Shown one piece after another: positions 4,189-30,484 of a stretch of DNA of 64,000 nucleotides. The stretch is from Opitutales bacterium. Lineage in GTDB: Bacteria > Verrucomicrobiota > Verrucomicrobiia > Opitutales > Oceanipulchritudinaceae. The stretch's first letter is position 1, and each line of letters starts with the position of its first letter. The position numbers were made by a program, and so were the translations under genes. Under the pieces are notes generated by a model, which did not search any database, was not told the DNA's origin, and was given only the letters and a program-made list of their open reading frames with translations. Where the stretch lies: positions 1-64,000 of the forward strand of contig JAFIGE010000007.1 of the NCBI GenBank assembly GCA_020831585.1. Reading direction: 5' to 3'.

Positions 4189-4200
4189 TTCCGCGCCACC

Positions 4201-4228
4201 CCGCAGCGAGGCTGAACCCTCGCTGCGG
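4201..4228 (+). other. Stable hairpin between binding-protein and permease genes
   Basis: CCGCAGCGAGG and CCTCGCTGCGG form a perfect 11-bp stem with a six-base loop just after the stop at 4188. There is no T-run, so it is unlikely to be a full terminator. Hairpins at this place in ABC operons commonly protect the upstream mRNA and raise binding-protein output relative to the permease. Confidence 0.55.
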
Positions 4229-4297
4229 AGGCGCTCCCTTCTTTTCACCTGCCCGGGCTGCTGCGGCCGCCCGACCACCCGTTTTCGTCCCTTCGCC

Positions 4298-5296: not shown

Positions 5297-5342
5297 ACCG
5301 CCTCTTTATACCCCGGCAAAACATACAGCCGCCCATCGTATC

Positions 5343-6245
5343 ATGAAAAAGCAGCTCGTCCTTTCCGAGACCCTCACCAAAGCCTATCCCTCTGAGAACA
5401 GGGGAGAGCCCGAACTGGTCGTTTTTGAAAACGTCAACTTCCGTATCCGCGAAGGGGAATTCGTCACCTGCATCGGGCACTCAGGCTGCGGCAAATCGAC
5501 TATCCTCAACATCCTCGCGGGCTTACAGTCCCCGAGCAAAGGCTACGTCTTCCTCGACGGCAAAGAAATCACGCGGCCCGGGCTCGACCGTGCCGTCGTC
5601 TTCCAGGGGCACAGCCTCCTGCCTTGGCTCACCGCCCTCGAAAACGTAACCTTCGCCGTCCGCGCCCGCTGGCCCGAATGGACCAAAGCCCAAGTGCGGG
5701 CACATGCCCTCGAATACATCGAGATGGTCGGCCTCAAAGATGCCTTTGACCGCAAGCCCCACCAGCTTTCCGGGGGCATGTGCCAGCGCGTCGGGATCGC
5801 CCGCGCCTTTGCCATCCGCAGCCGACTCCTCCTCATGGATGAACCCTTCGGTGCCCTCGACGCCCTCACCCGCGGCTCCATTCAGGAGGAACTCGTTAAA
5901 ATCTGTGCCGCCACCGGTCAGACCGTTTTTATGATCACCCACGATGTCGATGAGGCCATCCTCCTCTCCGACCGCATCTTTCTCATGACCAACGGCCCCC
6001 GCGCCCATGTCGCCGAAGCCGTCTCCATCAACCTCCCCCGGCCCCGCGACCGCGCCGAAATCGTGCACCACCCCGGCTACTACACCATCCGCAACCACCT
6101 CGTGGATTTCCTCGTCTCCCGCTCGCGGGAACTCTCCGGCGGGCGCCACGGTGCCACACCCGTCCCCGTCCACAATGCCAAGGGTGAACTCCTCTTCCCG
6201 CCCGATGTCGATCCCCTTGCTCTGAGCGAAACCGTCACCCGCTGA
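5343..6245 (+). CDS. ABC transporter ATPase, NrtC/NrtD/CynD type
   Basis: The 300-residue ATPase couples ATP hydrolysis to import through the adjacent permease. Walker A is GHSGCGKST (about residues 43-51), the Q-loop region follows at VFQGHSLLPWL, the signature is LSGGMCQR and Walker B is LLLMDEPFGALD, with the switch His in MITHDVDEA. It lacks the extra NrtA-like C-terminal domain of cyanobacterial NrtC; the free-standing signal-less binding protein at 1548 may supply that function. The ATG at 5343 gives the normal family N-terminus. Confidence 0.93.
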   Translation: MKKQLVLSETLTKAYPSENRGEPELVVFENVNFRIREGEFVTCIGHSGCGKSTILNILAGLQSPSKGYVFLDGKEITRPGLDRAVVFQGHSLLPWLTALENVTFAVRARWPEWTKAQVRAHALEYIEMVGLKDAFDRKPHQLSGGMCQRVGIARAFAIRSRLLLMDEPFGALDALTRGSIQEELVKICAATGQTVFMITHDVDEAILLSDRIFLMTNGPRAHVAEAVSINLPRPRDRAEIVHHPGYYTIRNHLVDFLVSRSRELSGGRHGATPVPVHNAKGELLFPPDVDPLALSETVTR

Positions 6246-6329
6246 ACCGTCGACAGAGCGCTTCCCGCAATCATCCGTTTTTTTCCTCAAACCCTTCTGT
6301 TCACCTAATACCGAAAACAAGAAATCATT

Positions 6330-6770
6330 ATGAAAAAGATTGAAATGACTGAAATCATCCTTGCCGCCAAAGCGAAGAAAAAGGCCACGTGGCAAGCCCT
6401 TGCCGAATCCGTGGGCTTGACGGATGTCTTCCTCGTCTCCGCTTGCCTTGGCCAGAACAGCCTGCCTGCGGAACACGCCGACAAGCTTTGCGAGGCACTC
6501 GACCTGGCACCGGCGGTGTCCGCCGCCTTGCAGGAGTTCCCCACCAAGGGAATGGACCCGGCCCTCCTGCAAGACCCCGTCATCTATCGCCTCCAGGAGA
6601 TCGTGTATGTCTACGGTCCTTCCATCAAGGCCGTCATCCATGAAAAACTGGGTGATGGCATCATGAGCGCCATCGACTTTTCCATGCACATCGACAAGGA
6701 ACCCAACCCCGCCGGTGACCGCGTGAACATCCGTCTGAGCGGGAAGTTCCTCCCCTACAAACGCTGGTGA
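6330..6770 (+). CDS. cynS: Cyanate hydratase (cyanase)
   Basis: Cyanase converts cyanate plus bicarbonate to ammonia and CO2 in the cytoplasm. The 146-residue length fits the family. An N-terminal helix-turn-helix-like domain (residues 5-70) is followed by the catalytic domain. Arg87, Glu90 and Ser113 occupy the positions of the E. coli triad Arg96, Glu99 and Ser122 with identical spacing, in the motifs VIYRLQEIVYVYG and GDGIMSAIDF. As the last cytoplasmic gene of the import operon it provides the strongest evidence for the transporter's substrate. Confidence 0.97.
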   Translation: MKKIEMTEIILAAKAKKKATWQALAESVGLTDVFLVSACLGQNSLPAEHADKLCEALDLAPAVSAALQEFPTKGMDPALLQDPVIYRLQEIVYVYGPSIKAVIHEKLGDGIMSAIDFSMHIDKEPNPAGDRVNIRLSGKFLPYKRW

Positions 6771-6901
6771 GTGCCCTCCTCCGGGGCACCGGCCCGCTCT
6801 CCCCAACCGGCGGAGAACGGGCCGGGCGCTCCCGGAAGGCGCCCACCGATAATATGCCTCCTCCAACCATTCGAAAACAACCACACCCTCCCACACCTAT
6901 C

Positions 6902-8131
6902 ATGTCTTTCCGCACCACCTTACGTCTCTCCGCCGGCACAGCCCTCGCCGCTGCGCTCTGTGCCCTAAGCCCGTCTCTGGCGGCCGATCCTCTCGAGGCG
7001 GCCCTCGACGATTTCTTTGCCTCCATCGAAGAAGCTGTCCCCGGTAAGTTCTCCCTCAACAGCCGCACGCGCTATGAGCGCTTTGCCACCCCTGCGGTCG
7101 ACCGCCGCGGCTTCTCTCAACGCTTCCGCTACGGATACGCCACTCCCGACTTTGAAGGATTCGGGGCCTACATCGAAGGGGAAACGCTCTTTGCGCTCAA
7201 CGGCAGCCACCGCATCCACCCTCTCGACCAAGCCGGCTCCGGCACGGAACTCAACCAGTTGCGCCTGCATTACGCGGACCCCGCCCTCGGGCGCATCACC
7301 CTGGGTCGCCAAATCTACACGCTCGATGACCAACGCTTCATCGGCCACGTCGGCTGGCGACAAAACATCCAGACATTCGACGCCCTCACAGCCGCCTTCA
7401 CCGGCGTGGAGAACCTCGCCGTCAACGCCTTCTACCTCGACCGCGTAAAGCGCGTTGATGGCTCCGGACAGGACTTGACCGGGCTCGGCCTCAACCTCCG
7501 CTACACCGTCGCCCCCTCCCTCGCGGTCACTGCCTTCGCCTACCGTCTCGACTTCGACCGCATGGCCGCCTGGTCCAACGACACGATCGGCCTGCGCCTC
7601 ACCGGACGAACAGCCGCCTCCGACCTCACCCTCGCCTACGCCCTCTCCTACGCCCGCCAGACGGACAACAGCGGCAGCGGCCCCCGCGACTTTTCCCTCG
7701 ACTACTGGGCCGGGGACCTCGCGGCCACGTTCCACGGGGTCACCCTCGGAGCTGGATTCGAGTTCCTTGAGGGCGACGGAACCGAAGGTTTCCGCACTCC
7801 CCTCGCCACCGTCCACGCCTTCAACGGACATGCCGATAAATTCCTTCCCGTGGCCGGGTTCCCCCTTGGTCTCGACGACCGCTACCTCTACGCGAGCTAC
7901 CGCCTCCCCGTGGGCGCGGGCATTCCCCTGCGTGTGGCCCACCACTGGTTCCGCCCCGAACAGGGGCCTGGGCGCTACGGACGGGAACTCAACTTCACCG
8001 GCAGCTACGCCTTCAACAAATACTTCTCCCTTGTCGCCAAATACGGGCGCTATCGGCCCGACTCCCATGCCGTCGGTATCGGCCAGGGCAAAAAGTCCAT
8101 GTTCACGCTGGAGTTGAATTTCAATTATTGA
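6902..8131 (+). CDS. Outer-membrane beta-barrel, alginate-export/porin-like
   Basis: The 409-residue protein starts with a clear Sec signal peptide (MSFRTTLRLSAGTALAAALC then ALSPSLAA) and continues as alternating amphipathic strands, ending in aromatic residues (LELNFNY), as expected for a barrel inserted in the outer membrane. Segments such as LNQLRLHYADPALGRITLGR recall the Alginate_exp family. Its place directly after cynS suggests an anion porin for cyanate or nitrate, which is inference. The ATG at 6902 is preferred over an upstream GTG because the signal peptide follows it. Confidence 0.8.
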   Translation: MSFRTTLRLSAGTALAAALCALSPSLAADPLEAALDDFFASIEEAVPGKFSLNSRTRYERFATPAVDRRGFSQRFRYGYATPDFEGFGAYIEGETLFALNGSHRIHPLDQAGSGTELNQLRLHYADPALGRITLGRQIYTLDDQRFIGHVGWRQNIQTFDALTAAFTGVENLAVNAFYLDRVKRVDGSGQDLTGLGLNLRYTVAPSLAVTAFAYRLDFDRMAAWSNDTIGLRLTGRTAASDLTLAYALSYARQTDNSGSGPRDFSLDYWAGDLAATFHGVTLGAGFEFLEGDGTEGFRTPLATVHAFNGHADKFLPVAGFPLGLDDRYLYASYRLPVGAGIPLRVAHHWFRPEQGPGRYGRELNFTGSYAFNKYFSLVAKYGRYRPDSHAVGIGQGKKSMFTLELNFNY

Positions 8132-11551: not shown

Positions 11552-13417
11552 ATGAACACGACCCCTCACCCCCCCCGTCTTCTCGCTACCCGCGCGGTCG
11601 CCGCCGCGGCCCTTGTCGGCCTCGCCCTCGCCGCCACGCCGCTGGTGCACGCCTGCGCCGCCTGCAACCTCACCTTCGCCGATGAAGTCACCACTGGCGA
11701 ACGCGCCGAGTCCATCATGGCTGCCGATCTGCGCCGCGCCATGGAAAACCAGCGCGCCGTCAACTTCGACGGCTTTGGCGACACCGCGCTCATCCAGGCC
11801 CAACTGGCCAAGCTCGACGCCGGGGAAACCCCTCCGGCGCAGCTTGCCTCCAGTTCCCCTCCATCCGTTGCCGAACGCACCGCAAACGCCGCCCCCGCCA
11901 GCATCCGTCCATCTGCGACTTCCACTCCAACCGACGGTCGCCCCCTTCCTGCCTACATGGAGGCGGCCGACTTCATCGAGATCATCGAACGTGACTACGC
12001 CCTCGCCACGCGCCCGACTTCTTTTGTCCCGCAAGACACCCCCCACGACAAAACCTTCACCATCACTCTCCACGAAGGAACGACCTACATCGGCAACGGC
12101 GTCGTCTATGAAGGCTTCCTCATGGACGGCAAAGTCCCCGGGCAGACCATCATCGTTGATGAAGGCGATGTCGTGGAAATGATCTTCGAGAACAAAGGCA
12201 ACATCCCCCACGGTGCCTCCATTCACTCCGCCTACACGCAGACCTCCAAATATGTCGGCAGCATCGGCCCCATGACCTCCAAGTCCGTGCGCTTCCGCGC
12301 CATGACGCCCGGTGTCTACATGTATCACTGCGCCCCCGGCGGCCACGCCATCGGCATGCACGTCATCGGCGGCCAATACGGCATGATGGTGGTGCGCCCA
12401 AAGCCCGGCAGCTTTCGCCTCGAACAGGAGCTCGGCCATGAACCCAACCTTGAACTCTTTCTCATCCAACACGAACTCTACGCCACCGGACGCGACTCCA
12501 TCTTCGGGGAGGCCGAATACACCCTCTTCAACGGTCGTCTCTTCCGCTACGTTGAAGAACCCATCCTGGTGAAGCCGGGCGACTATGTGCGCATCAACTT
12601 CCTCAACGTTGGCCCCAACCTTCTCTCCACCTTCCATATCGTCGGCATCATCTGGGATTACATCTACTGGCAGGGCCATCCAGAGGCCATGCTGCCCGGA
12701 GGCCAAACCGTTACCGCCGGACCCTCCGACTCCTTCGTCATCGAATTCCGTATTCCACCCGATGAAGGGGCCTACACGATGCTCTCGCACGCCGTGGGCT
12801 CAACCAACCGGGGTGCCATCGGCCTCCTTGTGGCGGACCGCGACGCCAACGTGCCCGCTCACCGGAAAATCCTTGCCGATGGCCCCGCCTTCACGGAATC
12901 GGAGATGGATCGCTACATCTCCGGGGCCACCCGCACGATCTCGCCCTTCGGCATTGGCACGCACCCAAAGGACCGTCCCGTCATCTTCGGTCCCGAAACC
13001 AAGGAGGTGCACGTCGCCATTATCGGAAACGCCTTTTATCCGAAAGTTATCCAAATCGCCCCCGGGACCAAGGTCACCTGGACCAACGAAGACGCCTTCA
13101 CGTATTTGGCCGGTGAATACTCCGGTATCCACAATGCCGCTGCTATCTCCGCACCGGAGGATAGCGATGGGTTCGTCTCTCCCCTCCTCGCCCACGGCGA
13201 ATCCTGGAGCCATGTCTTCGACGACACCGAGTGGACCTACGATTACATTTGCACGCCCCACCCCTACATGCTCGGGCGCGTCATCGTGGCTGAACCCGAG
13301 TATGCCCTCGGGGAAGCTGGAAGCGCGCGTGTGAGCCTCGGCGGATGGGTCCTCCCGCTCATCGGCGTATGCCTCATCCTCTCCACCGCCTCCCTCGCCT
13401 TTCGACGGAGAGGTTAA
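11552..13417 (+). CDS. nirK: NirK-like multicopper oxidase fused to a C-terminal cupredoxin and membrane anchor
   Basis: The 621-residue protein has a signal peptide followed by a CAAC motif (35-38), a two-domain copper nitrite reductase body (about 165-430), an extra cupredoxin domain (about 485-582) and a terminal transmembrane helix with a basic tail. Type-1 ligands in domain 1 are His220, Cys260 and His270. Type-2 ligands are His225, His259 and His413. The third domain has a plastocyanin/amicyanin-like CTPHPYM site (Cys567, His570, Met573) with a His at 527 or nearby. Three normally invariant NirK residues are changed: catalytic Asp98 is Ser223, catalytic His255 is Ile367 and the axial Met150 position is Gln275. 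It may reduce nitrite with altered chemistry or act on something else. Confidence 0.8.
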   Translation: MNTTPHPPRLLATRAVAAAALVGLALAATPLVHACAACNLTFADEVTTGERAESIMAADLRRAMENQRAVNFDGFGDTALIQAQLAKLDAGETPPAQLASSSPPSVAERTANAAPASIRPSATSTPTDGRPLPAYMEAADFIEIIERDYALATRPTSFVPQDTPHDKTFTITLHEGTTYIGNGVVYEGFLMDGKVPGQTIIVDEGDVVEMIFENKGNIPHGASIHSAYTQTSKYVGSIGPMTSKSVRFRAMTPGVYMYHCAPGGHAIGMHVIGGQYGMMVVRPKPGSFRLEQELGHEPNLELFLIQHELYATGRDSIFGEAEYTLFNGRLFRYVEEPILVKPGDYVRINFLNVGPNLLSTFHIVGIIWDYIYWQGHPEAMLPGGQTVTAGPSDSFVIEFRIPPDEGAYTMLSHAVGSTNRGAIGLLVADRDANVPAHRKILADGPAFTESEMDRYISGATRTISPFGIGTHPKDRPVIFGPETKEVHVAIIGNAFYPKVIQIAPGTKVTWTNEDAFTYLAGEYSGIHNAAAISAPEDSDGFVSPLLAHGESWSHVFDDTEWTYDYICTPHPYMLGRVIVAEPEYALGEAGSARVSLGGWVLPLIGVCLILSTASLAFRRRG

Positions 13418-13442
13418 TGTAATGAAATATCCGATACTTACC

Positions 13443-13934
13443 ATGAAAACCCTCCTCTCCCTCTTCACCCTCTTCCTCTGTATTTCCCTCTCCCTGAACA
13501 CGGGTTGCGGAAAAAACGGTGATGCCGCGATGGCCGAAACCGATACACCGGTCACGGAGATCACCATCACCGGAGATGACCGTATGCGCTTTGCCCCCAC
13601 CCGCTTCACTGTGCGGGCCGGCCACCGCATCACGCTCACGCTCGATAACATCGGACGCATGCCCAAGGAATCCATGGGGCACAATCTCGTCATCCTTGAT
13701 CAAGGCGTGGCCCCCAACGCCTTCGCCGCCGCCTCCGTCGGCTTTCCTCAAAATGAATATATCGCCCCGCAGTTTGAAAACCGTGTCATCGCCGCGACCA
13801 CCGTCCTCGGCCCCGGCGAACAGGAAACGATCACCTTCATCGCCCCAGCCACGCCCGGCGAGTATCCCTTCGTCTGCTCCTTCCCCGGCCACACGCAGGC
13901 ACGCATGGTCGGCATCATGATCGTGATCCCGTGA
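13443..13934 (+). CDS. Azurin-like blue-copper lipoprotein
   Basis: The 163-residue protein begins with a hydrophobic signal ending in LNTGC, a plausible lipobox that would anchor it in a membrane. The mature part is a cupredoxin of the azurin/plastocyanin type: MGHNLVIL supplies the first His and FVCSFPGHTQARMVG the Cys, His and Met ligands. It lies 25 bp after the NirK-like gene and would be a natural electron donor to it or to an oxidase. The ATG at 13443 is preferred to one at 13422 because the signal peptide starts there. Confidence 0.88.
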   Translation: MKTLLSLFTLFLCISLSLNTGCGKNGDAAMAETDTPVTEITITGDDRMRFAPTRFTVRAGHRITLTLDNIGRMPKESMGHNLVILDQGVAPNAFAAASVGFPQNEYIAPQFENRVIAATTVLGPGEQETITFIAPATPGEYPFVCSFPGHTQARMVGIMIVIP

Positions 13935-14253: not shown

Positions 14254-15447
14254 ATGGCATTGACCCATCCACCGCCATCCGCCCTTCGCCTGACCGCTGC
14301 CGGGGAACCCTTTCGCCTGCTCTTTCCCCTGGGGACGATGCTCGGCATCCTCGGTGTGGCCCTCTGGCCAGCCTTTGCCTGGGGGCTCTGGCCGGTCTAC
14401 CCGGCGGCGGCGCATGCGCCCATCATGATCCATGGGTTCCTCGCGAGCTATGTTTTCGGCTTTCTCGGCACAGCCCTTCCGCGTTTGCTCGATGCGCCTA
14501 AACTGGGCTTGCGCACGACTCTCTTGCTCGGAGCCGGTCCGCTTGCCCTGTCCATCGCTCACTTGGCCGAGGCGGCAGCGCTCGGTTTCGGCCTTTTCCT
14601 TGTTTGGCTCACGGGGTTCCTCCTTCTTCTCGGAAGCCGCTTCCGGGAGAACCGCGATATCCCCCCTCCGGGATTTGTCCTCGTCGCCCTGGGGCTGCTC
14701 TGCGGGTGGACAGGCTCCCTCCTGCTCTTCATGGATGCCGTCGGCACGGGGCTCGGGCCGACCCTCTACACGCTCGCCCGTCTCCTTGCCTGGCAAGCAT
14801 TCCTCCTCTTCCCCGTTCTGGGTATCGGAGCTTTTCTGCTCCCGCGCTTCTTCGGCATGCCGAGCAAGCACGCCTTCCCCGAGCAGCTCCTACCGTCCCC
14901 GGCCTGGCTGCGCCGGGCAGGTTTCGCCAGCGCCTGCGGTAGCCTCATCCTCATAGGCTTTTCTCTTGAAGCATATGGGCACGCCGTTGCCGGACATCTC
15001 CTGCGCGCCCTCGGCTTATCCATTTATCTGCTACGTGAAATCCCCTTACACAAGGCACACGAGGCGCGGGGAGATCTCGCCCTCGGCTTGCGCATCGCGC
15101 TCATCGCACTGCCCCTGGGTCTGGTTTTAGCGAGTTCCTTCGCGGGTGCCCACCTGGGTTGGATGCATGTCTTCTACCTCACCGGATTCGGGCTGATCAC
15201 CTTCATTGTGGCGACCCGGGTCTTGCTCGGCCACTCGGGCCAATCGGGCCGTTTCACCGCACGCCTGCCCGGTGTGCGTGTGCTCAGCCTCTGCACGGTG
15301 CTCAGCCTCGCTCTGCGCGTCAGAGCGGATTATCTCAACACCGGACGATTCGAAGCCTATGCCTGGGCGGCACTGATCTGGATCGGCGGAGTGGCTGCCT
15401 GGACCGCCACCACCCTGCCCCGCATACGCTATCCCGACAACGAATAA
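14254..15447 (+). CDS. nnrS: NnrS family protein
   Basis: The 397-residue integral membrane protein has about 12 helices with the family features EPFRLLFPLGTMLGILGVAL at the start and HAPIMIHGFLASYVFGFLGTA, in which the conserved histidines lie. NnrS is a haem- and copper-containing membrane protein that relieves nitrosative stress and is typically controlled by NnrR. It ends the nitrite/NO cluster, nine bases after the YecH-like gene. Confidence 0.92.
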   Translation: MALTHPPPSALRLTAAGEPFRLLFPLGTMLGILGVALWPAFAWGLWPVYPAAAHAPIMIHGFLASYVFGFLGTALPRLLDAPKLGLRTTLLLGAGPLALSIAHLAEAAALGFGLFLVWLTGFLLLLGSRFRENRDIPPPGFVLVALGLLCGWTGSLLLFMDAVGTGLGPTLYTLARLLAWQAFLLFPVLGIGAFLLPRFFGMPSKHAFPEQLLPSPAWLRRAGFASACGSLILIGFSLEAYGHAVAGHLLRALGLSIYLLREIPLHKAHEARGDLALGLRIALIALPLGLVLASSFAGAHLGWMHVFYLTGFGLITFIVATRVLLGHSGQSGRFTARLPGVRVLSLCTVLSLALRVRADYLNTGRFEAYAWAALIWIGGVAAWTATTLPRIRYPDNE

Positions 15448-15608
15448 CCTGCCCGCCTCCACGGTGTTTCCCCACCGTGGCTCCGGCTGTACGACCATGG
15501 CTGCGGGCTGCCCTGGTCGCCTTCTTTCCTTCATGCTGCCCCCATTTAATATCCCAGGTATATTTTTTCTTGATTCCTTGGAGTTTGGATGCAGTCTGTG
15601 TAGTTAGG

Positions 15609-16604
15609 ATGATGCAACTGATCCCGCCAAAGTCTCGCCGCGCACCCCGGATTCTAGTGAAGGGTGCCCGTGCCTATTATCATGTGGTTAGCCGAGTTGT
15701 TGACCGATCGTTTCGTCTTGCTGATGTGGATAAGGAGGTGTTTCGCGGATTGCTTGGGCGGGTGGTGGCGTTTTGCGGGGTGCGGGTGCTCACCTATGCG
15801 GTGCTGGACAACCACTTTCACCTTCTGGTGGAGGTGCCGGCTTCGCCGGGCGAGCCGGATGATGAAGAGCTTCGCCGAAGGGCGCGGCTGCTCTATGGCA
15901 AGGAGCGAAAGGGGCAACCGCTTTCCTTCTTCCGCATCGACCGTGCCTTGGCTGCCGGGGGTGAAACCCGGGAGCGTATGAGGGCGCTGCTGATCGGACG
16001 CATGGGATCGCTTCCGATGTTCGTGAAGATCCTCAAACAACGCTTTTCGATCATCCACAACCGCAAGCATGACCGCTTGGGTACGCTCTGGGAGGATCGT
16101 TTCCATAGTGTCTTGGTGGAGGATTCGGTGGCGGCGCTTATGTCCGTGGCGGCCTACATCGATCTGAATGCGGTGCGGGCAGGGATCGTGCAAGACCCCA
16201 AGGATTATCGCTTCAGTGGCTATGGAGAGGCAGCGGGCACGCGACGGGGATTCAGCCGCTTCCCTCTGTTTGAAAGGCTGGCGGCGGAGCACGCGGAGCC
16301 GATCGGGCAAATCGCCGCATTGTATCGTCGGCGTCTCTTTGTTTCCGGGAGCAACCCAGGCAAGGGGGGCACGGTTTCGAAGGAGGCGATGGAGCGCGCG
16401 CTCCGTCAGAAGGGAGCGATGACCCGGGGCGAATCGCTGCTTTGTCGACTGCGCTACATGACGCGGGGAGCCATCATCGGCTCGAAAGTCTTTATCGAGG
16501 AGTGGGCAGCCCAGAATAAAGAGCGGTATTTTCCCAAACGTCCGAAACGCCCGAAGCCGCTGTTTTTGGAAAATGGAGAGTCGTCTTTGTGTCGGCTTCG
16601 CTAA
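15609..16604 (+). CDS. Y1_Tnp (HUH) transposase, long form
   Basis: The 331-residue protein belongs to the single-tyrosine HUH transposases (Tnp1/IS200-like, RAYT-related). ARAYYHVVSRVVDRSFRLAD is the typical start, the metal-binding HUH motif is HFH at residues 69-71 and the nucleophile is probably Tyr183 in AAYIDLNAVRAGI. A long C-terminal extension (about 240-331) ends in RPKRPKPLFLENGESSLC, as seen in many Verrucomicrobia and Planctomycetes copies. No REP-type repeats or inverted ends are obvious next to it, so it may be a domesticated or inactive copy. Confidence 0.85.
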   Translation: MMQLIPPKSRRAPRILVKGARAYYHVVSRVVDRSFRLADVDKEVFRGLLGRVVAFCGVRVLTYAVLDNHFHLLVEVPASPGEPDDEELRRRARLLYGKERKGQPLSFFRIDRALAAGGETRERMRALLIGRMGSLPMFVKILKQRFSIIHNRKHDRLGTLWEDRFHSVLVEDSVAALMSVAAYIDLNAVRAGIVQDPKDYRFSGYGEAAGTRRGFSRFPLFERLAAEHAEPIGQIAALYRRRLFVSGSNPGKGGTVSKEAMERALRQKGAMTRGESLLCRLRYMTRGAIIGSKVFIEEWAAQNKERYFPKRPKRPKPLFLENGESSLCRLR

Positions 16605-16746: not shown

Positions 16747-18948
16747 TCAGAAGGTAACCTCCCATCCCACCCGCAAGCTCCGGCCCGGAAGCGGGGCGAT
16801 GTCTTTGAGGAAGGAGGGGTGATGGCGGGCTTCGCGGTTGAGGAGGTTTTCGGCCCGCAGGGTGATTTGGTGGCGGATACGGCCGACGACAAAGGGGACA
16901 CGCAGCCCGGCGTTGACGAAGGTGTAAGCGGGGGTCGGCGCCTGGTAAGCAAGGGTGCCAAAGACCGAATCGGGCACGCGGTTTTGCGCGAAGGCGCGGC
17001 GGACTTCAAGGTGGGTGGCGAAGCGGTCGAGGTCGGCGGCGAGGCGAAGGGAGGCGCGCAGGGGCGGTATGCGGGGCAGCGGTTGGTCGCGCTCCCGATC
17101 CTGACCGCGCAGGAGGTCGGCATCGGTCTGGAGAAAGACCGTTCGCTCCGCCTCGCGCCAGAGAACATAGCGGACCGTGCCCTCCAGCCCATGGAAACGG
17201 GCGGGGCTCTGCACGTGGCGGTAGGCAACGAGGCCCTCAATTTCAAAACCCTGGTTGCGCAGATAAATGAAGCCGTCGAAATCGCGCACAAAGGCATTGC
17301 CTTGGAGGAGCAGGCGCTCGCTCTCGTAGCGGACAAGGACTTCCGCGCTGCGCACGCGCTCGGGGCGCAGAGTGGGATCGGGAATGCGAAAGATCCCGGT
17401 GGCCTCGTGGGGAGCTTCAATAAAAAGTTCCTCGCTGGCGGGGCTTCGGCGCGCTTCGCCGAGATGGAGGCTGGCTTCGAGCGCGGGGGTCAGCTGAAAA
17501 CGCAGGCCAGCGGCTGTGCTCAGGGTGGCAAACCGGCGCGAGCGCAGGTCCTCGGGAAATCCTTCGGGCGGATCGCGCCGCCGGGCATGGCGCAGGCCGA
17601 GGTGCGTCCCCGCCTCAGCGGTCCAGCGGTCCGCGATCGGTTGCTCGGCGAGGGCAAAGAGCGCGCCGCCATGGTCCCGGCTGGTGAGGATGTCTTCGAA
17701 GGGACGACCGAGAAAAAAACTCGTGTTGCGGTTGCGGTAATCGGTGCGAAAGGCGGTGAGCCCGCCGGAGATCAGCGCCCCGGTCGGCGCGGTGTGCAGG
17801 ACCTCGCTGCGGACCTCGGCCTCCGTGCGGCGGAAGCTGTTGGTGAGAAAGGCCCCCTCGCGTTCGTCCTGGCGGAAGCGGGAAAAGCGCGCGCGGGTAT
17901 CCAGGGTTGGTTCATCGCCCAGCGCGGGGCGGCGGGCGGTGGCAAGCAAACGGAAGTTTTCGAGGTCGATGCGGACGGGATCGAAAGGGCTCGGGGCGTT
18001 CACCCCTGGCTGGGAAAAGGGGTTCCCATGGGCATGGCCATCCGGCGGCACACCGTATTCGGAGAAGTAGGCGTTGACGGCCGCACCAAACTCCCAGGTG
18101 CGCCCCGGGATGAGGGTGCCCAGGCTGGCGGAACGGGTGCGCAGATCGGTGTTGGGCACACGGCCGCCGGGATTGGGCGCGGGCGCGGGCACAGTCGGCG
18201 GAAGACGGACGCGATGGGCGGCATCGTAGCTCTCCGTGCGCGCCCGCCCGGGGATTCTGTAGTCACCGGCGGCCCGGTGGAGCGTCTGCGCGCGCACCAG
18301 CACGGACCCGGCGCTTGCCGTGTGTTCGAGGGCGGCGAGGCGCCCGTTGTTCACGGTCTCCCCTTGCGTGAGCAAACGGGTCTGCCCTTCCTCGCCCGGC
18401 TGGGGAATCAAGCCGCCGTCGACATCGACCGCCCCCCCGATCGCCGCACCGCCAAAGCGCAGCGCGGGGGTGCCTTTGTAGACAGTGACCCGACGGAGGA
18501 AAACCGGATCGAGAGCGACCGCGTGATCCGGACTGGTGTCGGAGACATCCCCCGTGCCGAGGCGGTTTTCAAAAACGCCCACCCGATAGCCGTCGAGACC
18601 GCGGATAACGGGCCGGCTGGCAGCCGGAGAGTAAAAGCTGGCCGTCACACCCGGCTCCCAGGCGAGGAGATCGGCCAGCGAGGGAGCGAGCCGTTCGGCG
18701 AGTTCGGTGCCCTCGATATCGCGGGTGAGACCGAGGGCCAATACCGGGCGCGGGGCCGCATCCGCACGGGCTCGGGCTTCCAGCGGGTCCAGCTCGTGGA
18801 TGTCGTCGCCGGGCATCTCATCGGCGAGCGCCCCGAGGGTCCCGGCGAGGGCCAACAGCAGGCAGCCAACGAGCCCCCGGAGGAACCGGGCAAGGGCCGT
18901 TTGGCAAGAGGCGGGGCGTGCGCGCACGGGTGTTTTATTGCAAATCAC
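16747..18948 (-). CDS. TonB-dependent outer-membrane receptor, ZnuD-like
   Basis: The product of about 730 residues has a signal peptide (LVGCLLLALAGTLGALA), a plug domain with SRPVIRGLDGYRVGVFENR and TGDVSDTSPDHAVALDPVF, and a barrel ending in LPGRSLRVGWEVTF. The plug motif and the end (HHPSFLKDIAPLPGRSLRVG) closely recall the zinc receptor ZnuD of Neisseria, including a His-containing loop PPDGHAHGNP. It shares a divergent promoter with a choice-of-anchor M gene. The first ATG lies inside the palindromic box, so the GTG at 18927 is a serious alternative start. Confidence 0.88.
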   Translation of the reverse strand: MICNKTPVRARPASCQTALARFLRGLVGCLLLALAGTLGALADEMPGDDIHELDPLEARARADAAPRPVLALGLTRDIEGTELAERLAPSLADLLAWEPGVTASFYSPAASRPVIRGLDGYRVGVFENRLGTGDVSDTSPDHAVALDPVFLRRVTVYKGTPALRFGGAAIGGAVDVDGGLIPQPGEEGQTRLLTQGETVNNGRLAALEHTASAGSVLVRAQTLHRAAGDYRIPGRARTESYDAAHRVRLPPTVPAPAPNPGGRVPNTDLRTRSASLGTLIPGRTWEFGAAVNAYFSEYGVPPDGHAHGNPFSQPGVNAPSPFDPVRIDLENFRLLATARRPALGDEPTLDTRARFSRFRQDEREGAFLTNSFRRTEAEVRSEVLHTAPTGALISGGLTAFRTDYRNRNTSFFLGRPFEDILTSRDHGGALFALAEQPIADRWTAEAGTHLGLRHARRRDPPEGFPEDLRSRRFATLSTAAGLRFQLTPALEASLHLGEARRSPASEELFIEAPHEATGIFRIPDPTLRPERVRSAEVLVRYESERLLLQGNAFVRDFDGFIYLRNQGFEIEGLVAYRHVQSPARFHGLEGTVRYVLWREAERTVFLQTDADLLRGQDRERDQPLPRIPPLRASLRLAADLDRFATHLEVRRAFAQNRVPDSVFGTLAYQAPTPAYTFVNAGLRVPFVVGRIRHQITLRAENLLNREARHHPSFLKDIAPLPGRSLRVGWEVTF

Positions 18949-18953
18949 TTGCG
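18938..18953. promoter_or_regulatory. Fur/Zur-like box 1, TTGCAAATCACTTGCG
   Basis: This imperfect inverted repeat (GCAA-N5-TTGC) lies in the 36-bp gap between the divergent ZnuD-like and choice-of-anchor M genes and overlaps the first possible start of the receptor. It matches the two sites at 21005 and 21039, suggesting one shared repressor. Confidence 0.6.
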
Positions 18954-18984
18954 AAAAGGAAATTCGGTCCCAAGCTCGTTTTCG

Positions 18985-19986
18985 ATGTTCCGGGTGTCAA
19001 TGCAGCAATCGTTTGGCCTCGCGGCGGTCGTTCTGGCGCTGACGTGGGCGAGCCCCGCGTCCGGCAAGCGGGTGCTGTGGGCGGGCCATTTCGACCTCGG
19101 CGCGCATTTCGATCCGGAGACGGGCTGGCACAGTTACGTTTGGGACTTCGATGAGGAGCGTGCGCTCGCGACCGAGAGCACCCTGCTTTGGGTTGGTCCC
19201 GCATACTGGAGGGAAATCGACTCGCCGATCCTGGCACCGTTGGCGAATGTGGGAGAGGCCGTTTGGGTCCTCCCGGCAACGCTCCCGGAGCACCTTTCCT
19301 GGGATGAGTTTCTCTACCTCGGCCTGGGCACCCAGCGGCAACAACCCGGGATTTTCCGTGGTGGAGCGGGCGGGCGCGGGGAGAAAACCATGCGCCTGGT
19401 CTCGGTGGAAGGCTCCGGCCCCGCGAACGGCGGCCACTTTGCCATGTGGTATACGGAGGGTCTGGGCCGGGTGATCTGGATTTTCAATACGCGCGATGGG
19501 ATCGGCGAGAGCGACCGTTTCGAAGGTCTCCGCGCCGGCTTCCACGGCCACTACAACACCGCCTTCACGCAACCGGGGCGTTACGAAGTGACGGTGGAGT
19601 TTTCCGGGGACTTGCGGGATGCCCACGGTGGCGGGCAGACGGCCCACCGCGCCACGTGGATTTTTTACGTGAGCGATTCCGAGGTGGATTGGTCGCGCGA
19701 ATTTACCCTCGCATCCGGCTGGGTCTTCACACCGGAAACCGGCTGGATGTATCCGCTCGGAGACGACCTTTACTACCGGCCGCACCGTGGATTCTGGAAG
19801 TTTTCCGATGCATCGCGGGAGGCCGCCTTTGTCTACGATCCCCGCTGGCAACAGTGGATCTACCGGTCGCAAGCATGGTATCCCTGGGCCTTTGATATGG
19901 AGGCCGGTTGGGTCTATGAGATCCGCCCGGATGCCCGACATCGGTTTTTTCCCGGAAATGGCTGGGTCCTTGAGCAAGTTGAATGA
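18985..19986 (+). CDS. Choice-of-anchor M domain surface protein 1
   Basis: The 333-residue protein has a signal peptide (QQSFGLAAVVLALTWASPASG) and one full TIGR03769-like domain: VLWAGHFDLGAHFDPETGWH, VWVLPATLPEHL, GPANGGHFAMWYTEGLGRVI and HGHYNTAFTQPGRYEVTVEF. The regularly spaced His pairs are typical of this family, which in actinobacteria is found beside metal ABC transporters. After it, residues about 245-333 are Trp/Tyr-rich repeats of about 20 residues (SGWVFTPETGWMYPLGDDLY, RGFWKFSDASREAAFVY, AGWVYEIRPD), a short-repeat motif often seen in Verrucomicrobia exoproteins. It may start at 18985 or 19000. Confidence 0.78.
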   Translation: MFRVSMQQSFGLAAVVLALTWASPASGKRVLWAGHFDLGAHFDPETGWHSYVWDFDEERALATESTLLWVGPAYWREIDSPILAPLANVGEAVWVLPATLPEHLSWDEFLYLGLGTQRQQPGIFRGGAGGRGEKTMRLVSVEGSGPANGGHFAMWYTEGLGRVIWIFNTRDGIGESDRFEGLRAGFHGHYNTAFTQPGRYEVTVEFSGDLRDAHGGGQTAHRATWIFYVSDSEVDWSREFTLASGWVFTPETGWMYPLGDDLYYRPHRGFWKFSDASREAAFVYDPRWQQWIYRSQAWYPWAFDMEAGWVYEIRPDARHRFFPGNGWVLEQVE

Positions 19987-20049
19987 GGGCGAGCGGTTTG
20001 GACCCCGCGGCCATTCTCCTGCTTTCGGAGCCACTTGGCGACGATTGGC

Positions 20050-20079
20050 CCAAAAAAACCTCCCCCGGTTTGGGGGAGG
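20050..20079 (-). terminator. Intrinsic terminator for the PEP-CTERM choice-of-anchor M gene
   Basis: CCTCCCCC and GGGGGAGG form a perfect 8-bp stem with a GGTTT loop. Read on the minus strand it is followed by seven T, giving a classic terminator 42 bp after the stop at 20121. Confidence 0.8.
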
Positions 20080-20120
20080 CGACTGAGAGAGACAGACGAT
20101 GGGCGAAATCGAAAAAGGCG

Positions 20121-20924
20121 CTAGGCCCGAATTTGGGCGCGCCGGCGAAGGAGAAGCACAAAGCCGAGGGCCACGAGACCGAAGGCGGCGGCGAAGGCGC
20201 GCGGCTCGGGGATCACGGAGAAGTTCACTGTCACACTGTCGATGGAGGAAGGGCCGTAAAGACCGCCAATCCCCTGGAAATCAAAGACAAACGAATAGTT
20301 CCCGGGTTGCGAGAACCCCCAGTGCCAGTGGGTGTGCCCCCAGGCCGGCCAGTCGTGAACGAGGTCGCCCGCAGCGGTCTCGTAGAGAATGACATTCGGT
20401 GGTTCCCCGGCCAGCGGATCGCCCGCGCGGAAGAGGATGAACTCCGCGCCCGCAGGCATCTCCGAGGCCCCCGTGTTGAGAGTCACCCGGAGGTTTGCGA
20501 ATTGGTTCACATCCGTGCCGTTATCATCCTCGCGCAATCGGGTGCGGAAACCGAAATCAGGCTGCGTTTCAATGTTGTAGCCGGTGCCCGATGCCGGAGT
20601 CACAAGATACGGGACGCCGTTGACTTCGACAAAGGGAGCGGTCGTCACCCGCACCGTGAGATCGGTGAAGTTGAAGTCGTTGGCCGAACCCCCGACGCCG
20701 CCCGGCGGTGTGCCGTAGGGCGAAGTGAGGTTCGTGGCCACCGTGTTGCCCTTTGTCCGGAAAATGGTGTCCCAACTGCCCAATCCGCTGTTGTAAAAGA
20801 AGGTGAGGTCGGCCCCGCCTTCGGTGAAGACGATGGACTGGGCGCTGACCGGCCCGGCCAGACCCGCCGCCAAGCCGAGCATCGCCGAATAAACCCCCGC
20901 ACGGGGAAGAATCGCTTGTTTCAT
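20121..20924 (-). CDS. PEP-CTERM protein with choice-of-anchor M-like fold
   Basis: The 267-residue protein has a signal peptide ending VSAQ, a body with EGGADLTFFYNSGLGSWDT, AGAEFILFRAGDPL and WGHTHWHWGFSQPGNYSFVF, and the sorting signal VIPEPRAFAAAFGLVALGF followed by RRRAQIRA. The H-T-H-W-H-W-G-F stretch before QPGNYSF corresponds to the His-rich segment of the neighbouring proteins. It would be released or anchored by an exosortase system encoded elsewhere. The ATG at 20924 directly precedes the signal peptide; a longer frame to 20999 lacks one. Confidence 0.8.
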   Translation of the reverse strand: MKQAILPRAGVYSAMLGLAAGLAGPVSAQSIVFTEGGADLTFFYNSGLGSWDTIFRTKGNTVATNLTSPYGTPPGGVGGSANDFNFTDLTVRVTTAPFVEVNGVPYLVTPASGTGYNIETQPDFGFRTRLREDDNGTDVNQFANLRVTLNTGASEMPAGAEFILFRAGDPLAGEPPNVILYETAAGDLVHDWPAWGHTHWHWGFSQPGNYSFVFDFQGIGGLYGPSSIDSVTVNFSVIPEPRAFAAAFGLVALGFVLLLRRRAQIRA

Positions 20925-21004
20925 AGTGATGGATTTCGAGTTTAATTGTTGTGGGTGAGGCCGGTGCCCGGCAGCTGTCGGGCAACCCAGCCTCACCACT
21001 CTTA

Positions 21005-21020
21005 TTGCAAATAATTTGCG
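21005..21020. promoter_or_regulatory. Fur/Zur-like box 2, TTGCAAATAATTTGCG
   Basis: GCAAAT-A-ATTTGC is a perfect 6-1-6 palindrome, the arrangement used by Fur-superfamily repressors. It lies 81 bp before the ATG of the minus-strand PEP-CTERM gene and 66 bp before the plus-strand synthase-like gene. Confidence 0.7.
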
Positions 21021-21038
21021 TTACGGGTCAATGACCAA

Positions 21039-21054
21039 TTGCAAGTTTCTTGCA
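21039..21054. promoter_or_regulatory. Fur/Zur-like box 3, TTGCAAGTTTCTTGCA
   Basis: TGCAAG-TTT-CTTGCA is a perfect inverted repeat of the same family, 18 bp after box 2 and 32 bp before the plus-strand start at 21086. Paired boxes here would give strong repression of the operon. Confidence 0.65.
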
Positions 21055-21085
21055 TTTGGAGGGCAAAGGGGTTGCGTTGGGGAAG

Positions 21086-23575
21086 ATGGAGCGGCACGAC
21101 GGAGAACCGGTGGCGAGGGGGGCGTTTGCCTGGGCCTGCGCGCTGGCGGTGGGCAGCGGGGCGGCAGCGCTGGCGCACCAGCTTTTGTGGACGCGCCGGA
21201 CGGTGGACCTTCTCGGAGCGGGGTCGGAATCGGCGGCACGGGTATTTGCGTGTTTCTTTCTCGGGCTGGCGCTGGGGTCGGGCCTGGGCGCGTGGATGGC
21301 GCGGCGGGTGCGGCGTCCGTGGCTCACGCTGGGCGTGGTGGAGGCCGGTGTGGCGGTGCTTTGTCTGCCGGTGGTTTTCCTGCCTGCGTGGACATCGGGG
21401 TTATGGGCCGCGCTGGGTCCGGCGTTTCTGGAGAGCGGGCACGGGGTCTGGGTGAAACTGGGCCTTTCGCTCCTCACGCTCACGCCGCCCGCCATTCTGA
21501 TGGGCGTTTTTCTCCCCGTGGCGGGCCGTGCGGTCTTTGGCGAGCGGCGGCGGCTCGGGCGGGACGGCCTCTGGCTCTATGCGCTGAACACGCTGGGCGG
21601 CGTGGCGGGCATGGCGGTGGTTTTGCTCTGGGCTCTGCCGGTATTCGGGGCGATGGGGGCGATGGGGTTCACCCTGCTCTTGAATGGCGCGGTGGCGGCG
21701 GGTTGTTTTGCCGCGCATCTGCGCTTTGGGGCGGTGGGTGAAGGCAGGGAGGCGGGGGGCGGGTCGCCGCTGCGCGGAATTTCGGCTTGGGTGGCGACCT
21801 TGGCCTTCGCCTCGGGCTTTCTCGTGTTGGCCTCTGAACTGGCTTTTCTCCAAATGCTTCTGCTCGCGGCGCCCCTCTCCCTTTACGCGGCGGCGGGGAT
21901 GCTGATGACGGTCATTTTGTGTCTCGGTCTGGCCGCCCTCATGACCCCGCGCCTCCTGCGGCTCGCGGGCGGACCCGCCGGGCTGCTGCCTTTTGCCCTC
22001 GGCGTGTCGGCGCTGACCACGCTGGCGGCCCCGATTCTCTTCCACGGTTTGGCGCTTCTCGGCGTGAATCTCTTCGATGTCGGCGGGGTCGGGGCGTTTT
22101 TTGCCGTCTTGGCGGCCACCTCGCTCCTTGTGCTGGGGCCGGTTTTTCTCGTCTCCGGGGTGGTCTTGCCCGCTGTCTTTGCGGCCCATGGCGAGCGCGC
22201 CGGAAACGAACACGGGCAGGGTTGGGGTTGGCTGCTCGCCGTGAACGGTTTCGGCGGGTTCCTCGGGGCGGAGTTCGCCTATCGCGCCCTCCTTCCCGCT
22301 TTGGGCATCTACGGCACGGTCGCGGCCTGCGCCGCCGTATATGGCGCGCTCGCCCTCGCCGCTGCCGTGCGGGTGCGCACCTACGCCGCTGGGGGCTTTG
22401 CCCTCGCCTGCGCCGCCGCCGTGGTGCTGGCCTTTGCACCGGTCGCGGGCCTGCCTGTTGTCAATCCGGCCGTGCCTGTGCGCATCCTCCACGCGGAGGC
22501 CGGACGCGAGGGTAGCCTGGCAGTGATCGAAAGCCCGTTGGCAGGCCGGGCGATGCTCCTGCAAAACCAATACATGCTCGGGAGCACGGCCGCCCGCTAT
22601 GAACAGGAACGGCTCGGCCACTTGCCGCTCCTTCTCCACCCGTCACCCCGGCGGGTAGGCTACATCGGACTCGCCACCGGGATCACGCCTTCCGCCGCGC
22701 TCCGGCATGAGGCGGTCGAGCGCATAGACGTGGCGGAGATTTCGAGGAGCGTCACACGGGCGGCGGAGATGTGGTTTACGGAGTTCAACGGAGGTCTCCA
22801 CGCCGATCCGCGGGTGCGCCTTTGGCTGGAGGATGGCCGCGTTTTCGCCGCTGCGCACCGGGAGGCCTTTGACGTCCTCACGGGCGATCTTTTCCTGCCT
22901 TGGGGGCCCGGAGAAGGGCGGCTCTTCGCCGTGGAGCACTTTGCGCATTGCCGGGCGGCCCTGCGGCCCGGAGGCGTCTTTGTGCAGTGGTTGCCCATGC
23001 ACCAGCTCACGCGAGACCAGTTTGAGACCATCCGGGCCGCCTTCGGGGCGGTTTTCGGTCCGCACGACATCTTCACGGCGGGCTTTGAGCCCCATACGCC
23101 CTTGGTCGCGCTCGCCGGATGGCGCGAGGGCGCACTGCTGGACTGGAATGTGGTGGGCCGGCGAACCGCAGAGGCCCGTTCGTTCATCCCGGACCCGGTC
23201 CTTCGGCACCCGGAGGGGCTGGCGCTGCTCTACCTCGGGCGCCCCCCCTTGTCCGAAGGCATTCCCCCCAACACCCTCGACAACATGCGCCTGGAGCTGG
23301 ATGCCGCCCGCCGGCGTATCGGCGGCGGTGCCCCGTATCTCTACGGTCGGGAATGGATCGATTTTCGCACCGGGCTGGCAGAGACCGCCGCCCCCGCCTT
23401 GGGCACCGATGGCGAGTTAATACAGTCGGGCGAGCAGATCGCCCGGGCCGCCCTGCGTGTGCGCTCGGGAGATACCGGTGCCCGCCCGATGCGCGGATGG
23501 ATACCCGAGGTGCTCCTCCTCGACCACGGTGCGGACTGGCGGCGTTGGCCCGGTCCGGATCCGCGTTTCCACTGA
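21086..23575 (+). CDS. Membrane protein fused to a spermidine-synthase-like domain
   Basis: The 829-residue protein has about 12-14 transmembrane helices in residues 10-460, followed by a soluble spermidine-synthase/methyltransferase-like domain (about 480-780) with PRRVGYIGLATGITPSAALR, ERIDVAEISRSVTRAAEMWF and EDGRVFAAAHREAFDVLTGD. The C-terminal domain keeps the Rossmann layout, but I cannot judge whether a polyamine substrate fits. Fused synthase-transporters of this kind are known but mostly uncharacterised. The ATG at 21086 follows GGGGAAG; an earlier TTG at 21050 lies inside box 3. It is followed after five bases by another choice-of-anchor M gene, so the two are co-transcribed. Confidence 0.82.
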   Translation: MERHDGEPVARGAFAWACALAVGSGAAALAHQLLWTRRTVDLLGAGSESAARVFACFFLGLALGSGLGAWMARRVRRPWLTLGVVEAGVAVLCLPVVFLPAWTSGLWAALGPAFLESGHGVWVKLGLSLLTLTPPAILMGVFLPVAGRAVFGERRRLGRDGLWLYALNTLGGVAGMAVVLLWALPVFGAMGAMGFTLLLNGAVAAGCFAAHLRFGAVGEGREAGGGSPLRGISAWVATLAFASGFLVLASELAFLQMLLLAAPLSLYAAAGMLMTVILCLGLAALMTPRLLRLAGGPAGLLPFALGVSALTTLAAPILFHGLALLGVNLFDVGGVGAFFAVLAATSLLVLGPVFLVSGVVLPAVFAAHGERAGNEHGQGWGWLLAVNGFGGFLGAEFAYRALLPALGIYGTVAACAAVYGALALAAAVRVRTYAAGGFALACAAAVVLAFAPVAGLPVVNPAVPVRILHAEAGREGSLAVIESPLAGRAMLLQNQYMLGSTAARYEQERLGHLPLLLHPSPRRVGYIGLATGITPSAALRHEAVERIDVAEISRSVTRAAEMWFTEFNGGLHADPRVRLWLEDGRVFAAAHREAFDVLTGDLFLPWGPGEGRLFAVEHFAHCRAALRPGGVFVQWLPMHQLTRDQFETIRAAFGAVFGPHDIFTAGFEPHTPLVALAGWREGALLDWNVVGRRTAEARSFIPDPVLRHPEGLALLYLGRPPLSEGIPPNTLDNMRLELDAARRRIGGGAPYLYGREWIDFRTGLAETAAPALGTDGELIQSGEQIARAALRVRSGDTGARPMRGWIPEVLLLDHGADWRRWPGPDPRFH

Positions 23576-23580
23576 ACCAG

Positions 23581-24756
23581 ATGAAACCCCGATCCCTGCG
23601 CGGAATTCTTTTTATGCATCATCAAAAATGGACCTTCGTTCTTTTATTTCTCACCTTCGTAACGGCGACGCAAAGCAGCGGCGACGTGGCGGGACGCCTC
23701 GTCATGGGGCAGGGCCACCTTGACATGGATTTCGACTACACGGCGGAGGCGGGCTGGGTCTTGCGGCACCGCCATGAGGACAAGGGTATCCGTTCCTTCG
23801 GGGAGGGCTTGATCTTTGTCCGCGACGGCGCTTTCCCGGCGGAGGGCTCGCGGATCACGCGACCGGAGGACGGGCAGTGGGCGTTTCTCGGTGTGGCAGC
23901 GGGTGAGCCCTTCTGGTTTCTGCCGGCCTCCGAACGGGATGGGATCGTGTGGCCGGGCATGGCCGCCGAACACACCGATCTGTCGCTCCTGGCAGCTTGG
24001 GAAGCGGGCGATCCCCGCCGCACGGCGCAAGCCACGCGTTGGATTGCCGTGGACCTTGTGGGGGTTCGCTTCACCGGTGAGGGCACGGGTCACCTCGCCA
24101 TGTGGGTAACCGATATCGGCGGCGCGCCCCTGGTCTTTTGGTCGACCGCCGCCCCCCACCCCGCCGGAAACCGTTATCTCATGGCGGCGGGATCGCACAA
24201 TCACATGGCCTGGGCTTTCAGCGCGCCCGGCGTCTACGAGGTCGATGTGCGGGCCTCCACCGTTCTGGCAGATGGCACGGTGAGCGAAAGTGCGGTGGAT
24301 ACGCTTGTCTTTGTTGTTGGCGCGACGCCGGACCCCCTTCGCTATCAGGAGTGGGCCGCCCTGCGCTTTTCCGCCCAAGAGCGCGACGCCGGAAAAGCCG
24401 ACCCGGCCGCAGACCCCATGGGCACGGGTGTGCCCAACCTCCTTGCCTTCGCATCCGGAGGGGAGCCGGGAGCGTCCCCGGCATCGATCACCCCCCGCCT
24501 GGAAGTGGCTGACAACCGGGTTGCCCTCGCCTTCACGCGAAGGGCCGATCTGGGTGACACGATCCTGCGCCTCATGCGCTCATCCGACCTCGCCGTATGG
24601 ACCGAGGTCGCGCACACGACGGGCCCGAACCCTTGGACGCTGTTGGAAACGGAGGCCACTGTCGGGGAGTCAAGTCTCGGAGAGGGCCTCCGTCGTGTCG
24701 AGGTATCGCTGCCGAACGATCCGACGGTATTCATTCGCTTGGAGGCCCATTTCTAA
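23581..24756 (+). CDS. Choice-of-anchor M domain surface protein 2
   Basis: The 391-residue protein has a signal peptide (WTFVLLFLTFVTATQSSGD; an inner start at 23614 is possible). Its domain shows VMGQGHLDMDFDYTAEAGWV, GTGHLAMWVTDIGGAPLVFW and GSHNHMAWAFSAPGVYEVDV, again with the ordered His residues. The C-terminal part (about 255-391) has a spacer ADPAADPMGTGVPNLLAFA, typical of Verrucomicrobia exoproteins, and a beta module ending in FIRLEAHF. It is the last gene of the operon controlled by boxes 2 and 3. Confidence 0.8.
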   Translation: MKPRSLRGILFMHHQKWTFVLLFLTFVTATQSSGDVAGRLVMGQGHLDMDFDYTAEAGWVLRHRHEDKGIRSFGEGLIFVRDGAFPAEGSRITRPEDGQWAFLGVAAGEPFWFLPASERDGIVWPGMAAEHTDLSLLAAWEAGDPRRTAQATRWIAVDLVGVRFTGEGTGHLAMWVTDIGGAPLVFWSTAAPHPAGNRYLMAAGSHNHMAWAFSAPGVYEVDVRASTVLADGTVSESAVDTLVFVVGATPDPLRYQEWAALRFSAQERDAGKADPAADPMGTGVPNLLAFASGGEPGASPASITPRLEVADNRVALAFTRRADLGDTILRLMRSSDLAVWTEVAHTTGPNPWTLLETEATVGESSLGEGLRRVEVSLPNDPTVFIRLEAHF

Positions 24757-29854: not shown

Positions 29855-30484
29855 ATGCGTTTTTTCAGTGATCAGGCGCGGACGGTAACGACACGGAACC
29901 ATCTCCCGCATTGGCAACAGGAAGAGGCGACCTACTTCGTGACCTGGCGCTTGAAAGACTCGATCCCGCAGGCGCTGATGGAGTCGTGGAGGCAGGATCG
30001 GGAGGAATGGGTGCGGCTTCATCCGGAACCCTGGACGGAGGAACAGACGATGGAGTATCATTCGCTGTTTTCCACACGAATGGATGCGTTGATGGACGAG
30101 GGCTACGGGGAGTGTGTGCTCCGGCAGGAGGCTTGCCGGGAGATCCTTGCCGCATCGCTGGGCATGTTCGATGGCGAGCGTTTCCTGATGCACTCCTGGG
30201 TAGCGATGCCAAACCATGTGCATGCCCTTTTCTCGATGGCGAAAGGCAGGAAGCTGGAAAAAGTGGTGGGGGGATGGAAAGGATACTCCGCGAAGGATAT
30301 CAACGTGCTCTTGGAGAGGACAGGGGCGCTGTGGCAAAAGGATTACTTCGACAGGATGGTGAGGGATTGGGATCACCTGTTCCGCGTTGCGAGGTATATC
30401 CGGAGAAACCCGGTGAAGGCCAAACTGGGTGAAGGCGAGTTCACCCTGTATGAGGCGAATTGGGTGAAGAAGATGCTGGGATGA
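29855..30484 (+). CDS. REP-associated tyrosine transposase (RAYT)
   Basis: The 209-residue Y1_Tnp protein has LPHWQQEEATYFVTWRLKDS at the N-terminus, the metal-binding HUH motif HVH at residues 121-123 (AMPNHVHALF), the RAYT signature ALWQKDYFDRMVRDWDHLF and the nucleophile Tyr181 in ARYIRRNPVKAKL. RAYTs cut and join single-stranded REP hairpins and are thought to spread them. This gene is flanked on both sides by complete REP palindromes (d and e), the classic REPtron arrangement, and seven or more copies lie within 7 kb, so the pair looks functionally linked. Confidence 0.93.
   Translation: MRFFSDQARTVTTRNHLPHWQQEEATYFVTWRLKDSIPQALMESWRQDREEWVRLHPEPWTEEQTMEYHSLFSTRMDALMDEGYGECVLRQEACREILAASLGMFDGERFLMHSWVAMPNHVHALFSMAKGRKLEKVVGGWKGYSAKDINVLLERTGALWQKDYFDRMVRDWDHLFRVARYIRRNPVKAKLGEGEFTLYEANWVKKMLG

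Follow-up and report, generated by a model that had tools for sequence, protein, structure and literature searches.

The nearest functional analogue of the locus described here is ZepA of Anabaena (All3515), which was reported in 2024 as a Zur-controlled exoprotein for zinc uptake and is also present in PVC bacteria (PMC10957091). Genes neighboring zepA encode COG0523 proteins, TonB-dependent transporters, PEP-CTERM proteins and a Fur-family protein, and the authors proposed that ZepA hands zinc over to an outer-membrane receptor, raising the question by what route zinc bound to secreted proteins crosses the outer membrane (PMC10957091). In Corynebacterium diphtheriae, the zinc-regulated surface proteins ZnuE, ZnuF and ZnuG were found in 2025 to bind zinc in thermal-shift assays, and zinc-dependent shifts remained in mutants of their motif (PMC12445094). 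ZnuD of Neisseria is a TonB-dependent zinc receptor with the buried ligands Asp99, His100, Glu340 and His499 (PMC4557270). Judged by its sequence, the locus of an Opitutales bacterium analyzed here provides a link among ZnuD, the ZnuE/F/G proteins of corynebacteria and ZepA-like biology. It resembles the ZepA system in having a secreted putative zinc-uptake protein in a Gram-negative cell, a similar gene neighborhood and an occurrence in the PVC group. The original prediction knew of no described equivalent; ZepA (PMC10957091) and ZnuE/F/G (PMC12445094) correct this, but what is new is that, in Gram-negatives, proteins of the ZnuE/F/G type are paired with a ZnuD-like receptor. Among open-licence papers, we found no literature on a Verrucomicrobiota Zur regulon that includes choice-of-anchor M (anchor-M) proteins.

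The window, i.e., the whole 64,000-nt stretch of DNA analyzed, is part of contig C76. The genome measures 5.28 Mb and is 98.5% complete, and the closest relatives with a name are metagenome-assembled Opitutales genomes. Five intact ORFs span positions 16747–24756 at the originally predicted coordinates and, also as predicted, form two divergent pairs, with anchor-M gene 3 as the operon partner of the gene encoding a synthase-like membrane fusion (Table 1). The GTG listed as the start of the receptor gene (18948) falls within operator 1, and the GTG at 18927 appears to be the likelier start. Elsewhere in the window, two genes look like those of REP-associated transposases, and a short peptide frame, GQQDAAPPW, recurs in the intergenic DNA near them, suggesting a dispersed repeat.

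Table 1. Features of the zinc locus, its surroundings and related loci (window positions unless a locus handle precedes them)
Feature	Position	Strand	Remarks
ZnuD-like TonB-dependent receptor	16747..18948	(-)	733 aa as listed
Receptor ligand equivalent D141	18526-18528	(-)	
Receptor ligand equivalent H142	18523-18525	(-)	
Receptor ligand equivalent E362	17863-17865	(-)	
Receptor ligand equivalent H514	17407-17409	(-)	
Operator 1	18938..18954	(.)	TTGCAAATCACTTGCGA; between receptor and anchor-M 1
Anchor-M protein 1	18986..19986	(+)	Secreted; Trp-rich C-terminal part
Anchor-M 1 HFD	19087-19095		HxD
Anchor-M 1 HGH	19543-19551		HxH
Anchor-M protein 2	20121..20924	(-)	PEP-CTERM-like C-terminus: IPEP, hydrophobic stretch, RRR
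Anchor-M 2 HTH	20328-20336		HxH
Operator 2	21005..21021	(.)	TTGCAAATAATTTGCGT; between anchor-M 2 and fusion gene
Operator 3	21039..21055	(.)	TTGCAAGTTTCTTGCAT; between anchor-M 2 and fusion gene
Synthase-like fusion	21086..23575	(+)	829 aa
Anchor-M protein 3	about 23614..24756	(+)	Secreted; 38 bp 3' of fusion gene
Anchor-M 3 HLD	23716-23724		HxD
Anchor-M 3 HNH	24196-24204		HxH
Copper nitrite-reductase-like protein, then separate cupredoxin gene	11552-13934		Amicyanin-like C-terminal domain in the former
REP-associated-transposase-like genes	15159-16604; 29855-30484		By appearance
Candidate ZepA homolog	L292:12591-13289		PEP-CTERM protein with HDDHYH
TonB-dependent receptor, Fur-family gene and second COG0523 gene	L022 (G000:C136) 2958-7508		Receptor by eye like copper receptors
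Prepilin-like genes upstream of anchor-M	L087:14475-15293; L103:7564-8370; L107:11174-11866; L076:10267-10986		FTLVELL, DUF1559-type
Long anchor-M proteins	L233:3395-6496; L255:3113-6310		Roughly 1030-1065 residues; five anchor-M domains in L233

ZnuD proved to be the best NCBIfam model for the receptor (153.2 bits, E = 1e-44) and, since the curated cut-off of 950 bits was not reached, we call the protein ZnuD-like rather than ZnuD. Among solved structures, the top match was likewise ZnuD (4rdr, E = 1.5e-34), with heme receptors coming next (7.6e-7). Pairwise alignment to 4rdr revealed that all four zinc ligands are kept (Asp99, His100, Glu340 and His499 as D141, H142, E362 and H514, respectively), the 14-residue offset between the 4rdr chain and the literature numbering, obtained by counting, being consistent for all four; a His-containing loop (GHAHG) is present as well. 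Across 12 aligned receptors, D141, H142 and E362 are invariant, and the fourth position (H514) is occupied by His in roughly half of them and by Asn in the others. An iron or cobalt uptake locus, with heme, a siderophore or B12 as the receptor ligand, could be proposed from lower-scoring matches to heme/hemoglobin receptor models (94 bits) and from the former annotation of ZnuD itself as a heme receptor (PMC4557270), but no other solved structure matches nearly as well as ZnuD, the four ZnuD ligands are kept and the locus has an operator in common with znuABC and zigA (see below), which together render such a role very improbable. The receptor does not belong to a B12 or iron clade, in line with the original prediction of a zinc receptor. 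Separately, candidate roles in manganese, iron, heme and B12 uptake were rejected on the basis of the receptor ligands and the operator.

The three secreted proteins had been predicted to be anchor-M family members with ordered His pairs, which holds for anchor-M proteins 1 and 3 but only in part for anchor-M 2. Specifically, proteins 1 and 3 score above the NCBIfam choice_anch_M cut-off of 55 (60.2 and 87.1, respectively) and carry a complete HxD…HxH motif bracketing ~150 residues (149 and 157, respectively). In comparison, anchor-M 2 scores 31.5, is borderline for TIGR03769 (27.9 to 31.3 versus a cut-off of 30.9) and has half of the motif: HTH is kept, and HxD is lost, with GGAD in its place and the first histidine missing. 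Its C-terminus (IPEP…RRR) gave no TIGR02595 match at E 0.001. An alignment of 30 divergent anchor-M sequences contains only five invariant columns, D39, G117, H197, H199 and G208 (anchor-M 3 numbering), which represent the HxD…HxH motif of C. diphtheriae ZnuE/F/G. The spacing of about 150 aa is that of ZnuE/F/G and CmrA/CmrA2, a likeness by motif alone; those proteins belong to Gram-positives and use sortase or membrane anchoring without an outer membrane or TonB receptor. Since the C. diphtheriae motif mutants are still zinc-responsive, HxD/HxH is not proven as a zinc site, and the anchor-M proteins of this locus are regarded as putative zinc binders. The anchor-M 3 domain was modeled by AlphaFold with a pLDDT of 91.1; a fold search with this model returned no solved structure at E < 0.001, a second fold comparison gave generic beta-sandwich matches (Z up to 6.2, 125 residues, 3.8 Å), and a profile search of solved structures with the 30 anchor-M sequences gave no match.

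ZepA homologs are marked by the motif H-X2-9-H-F/Y-H, which is missing from all three anchor-M proteins here and was found in 2 of 142 anchor-M sequences; orthology of the anchor-M proteins to ZepA was thus rejected by motif. In locus L292, a PEP-CTERM protein that is a candidate ZepA homolog adjoins a cluster of receptor, anchor-M and COG0523 genes, from which the ZepA and anchor-M families seem to be distinct yet associated.

A palindrome, TTGCAA-N5-TTGCR, is present in three copies in the locus and occupies both divergent intergenic regions. Operator 1 has counterparts in relatives (TTGCAAATCACTTGCAA in L086 and ATGCAAATCACTTGCAA in L084), and the region between anchor-M 2 and the fusion gene contains TTGCAAGAAACTTGCAA or its complement in L083, L085 and L222. 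A pattern search over the whole 5.28-Mb genome yielded 8 exact matches, versus 3 for the reversed pattern used as a control. Five copies lie outside the locus, two of which precede zigA and znuABC. Specifically, one is located 49 bp before a COG0523 gene whose product passes the curated ZigA equivalog cut-off (605.9 versus 600), and the other is found ~120 bp before the matched part of znuA, followed by znuC and znuB; among solved structures, the znuA product is closest to 2ov1/1pq4 (E = 1.4e-47), which binds zinc as part of a zinc ABC transporter. Because znuABC and zigA have the same operator, membership of the locus in the Zur regulon is very probable, and the five genes are probably switched on by zinc starvation and presumably repressed by zinc. 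Within the order, operator-like sites are ~20-fold denser upstream of these genes than in the rest of the same loci, and the enrichment is 14- to 21-fold in a wider set. An operator upstream of znuA was not found in the close relatives G021 and G130, nor was an operator found in several loci of family f24. Most genomes carry two znuA-like genes, and among the best 30 znuA loci the site occurs only in L139 and L141, both of the operator-bearing class, so the non-operator class (e.g., that on C72 of this genome) serves as a negative group.

The genome encodes six Fur-family proteins, and which of them may be Zur is suggested from relatives only. A Fur-family gene directly follows the fusion/anchor-M genes in G021 and G130, its best counterpart here being on C126; another, on C136, adjoins the second COG0523 gene and displays 55–59% identity to the linked Fur genes of L097 and L106. 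In the latter region (L022), variant sites, GAAAGTnACTT, lie upstream of both the Fur-family and the COG0523 gene. In four other loci (Table 1), prepilin-like genes are found directly upstream of anchor-M genes with an operator in front, for which reason they may be members of the zinc regulon.

Co-occurrence in relatives, on which the original prediction could be checked, revealed a conserved linkage. The choice_anch_M domain is sparse: of 132 genomes of the order, 29 carry it, as do 28 of the 388 in a phylum sample. Three copies within 6 kb are therefore not background. In module 1, the ZnuD-like receptor gene is divergent from an anchor-M gene, an arrangement shared by 12 genomes besides this one (L091 and L224 being one genome). 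Module 2 comprises the fusion gene and anchor-M genes; an anchor-M gene lies within 4 kb at 31 of 41 fusion loci, and at 16 of the 20 with at least 2.5 kb on both sides. ZigA/COG0523, Fur-family, ZnuA, ZnuB, MerC and prepilin-like genes are recurrent neighbors of anchor-M genes, and the linkages are spread across the PVC superphylum. Just as ZnuE/F/G are encoded with the Znu transporter, L233 and L255 have a long anchor-M gene, znuA, znuB and the fusion gene in succession on a single strand. A copper function, in which the His-rich surface proteins would bind copper, draws on the copper nitrite-reductase/amicyanin-like protein and the cupredoxin encoded 3–5 kb away, yet this neighborhood is not seen beside the modules in relatives, where zinc genes are found instead, and the operator is that of zinc genes; we therefore see hardly any likelihood in it.

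The fusion matches the predicted membrane/spermidine-synthase-like architecture, with about 460 residues containing about 13 hydrophobic segments followed by a Spermine_synth domain. Its general architecture is like that of fused MFS/spermidine synthases (NF037959), but its score is below the cut-off (32.5 versus 40), its active-site motifs are altered and it is linked to zinc genes. Alignment to 3o4f revealed GLATG, EIS and DLFLP in place of the synthase motifs GGGDG, EID and DxTDP, and by its catalytic motifs the fusion does not qualify as a spermidine synthase; its enzymatic activity is consequently uncertain. With the rest of the locus, the fusion is very probably a new member of the zinc regulon. 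It might even represent a novel type of zinc-starvation protein, producing a small zinc chelator (zincophore) and exporting it for retrieval by an anchor-M protein or the ZnuD-like receptor: a SAM-type synthase fold is fused to a polytopic membrane domain, the gene is preceded by znuA and znuB on the same strand in L233 and L255, and it shares the operator with the TonB receptor gene. However, the fusion gene has no other biosynthetic gene as a conserved neighbor, and the changes from GGGDG to GLATG and from CTDP to LFLP leave synthase activity in doubt, so we consider a zincophore unlikely.

Taken together, the shared operator, the conserved receptor ligands, the conserved HxD/HxH motif and the conserved linkage support well the Gram-negative surface zinc capture originally predicted, and we are confident, on these sequence grounds, that the locus is a zinc-scavenging Zur-regulon module, for which a relay from anchor-M proteins through the receptor to ZnuABC is the likeliest mechanism. 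Under zinc shortage, a Zur-type repressor of the Fur family would leave the TTGCAA-N5-TTGCR operators, and both divergent pairs would be expressed, as would znuABC and the gene of the chaperone GTPase ZigA, which lie at other places in the genome. Zn2+ would be bound, on the outer membrane or beyond it, by secreted anchor-M proteins bearing an HxD…HxH site and might then pass to the receptor, a transfer that is plausible; the ZnuD-like receptor would take zinc into the periplasm with TonB energy, ZnuABC would carry it to the cytoplasm, and the synthase-like fusion would take part in the starvation response. A competing account departs from this relay in the transfer step only: within the same regulon, anchor-M proteins would store or buffer zinc at the surface and the receptor would import free zinc alone. 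ZnuD was crystallized with zinc bound and no carrier present (PMC4557270), ZnuF and ZnuG of C. diphtheriae seem to sequester zinc in the absence of the transporter (PMC12445094), and many relatives have anchor-M genes without a receptor nearby, but the divergent receptor/anchor-M pair, which recurs in 13 genomes when this one is counted, suggests a joint function of the two; we give storage or buffering somewhat less than an even chance.

In the relay from anchor-M proteins to the receptor, the hand-over would be directly testable, with secreted proteins and a receptor with recognizable zinc ligands in a conserved divergent pair. The locus would also bring HxD/HxH proteins, so far characterized in Corynebacterium, into Gram-negative biology and would tie an uncharacterized synthase-transporter fusion to zinc homeostasis.
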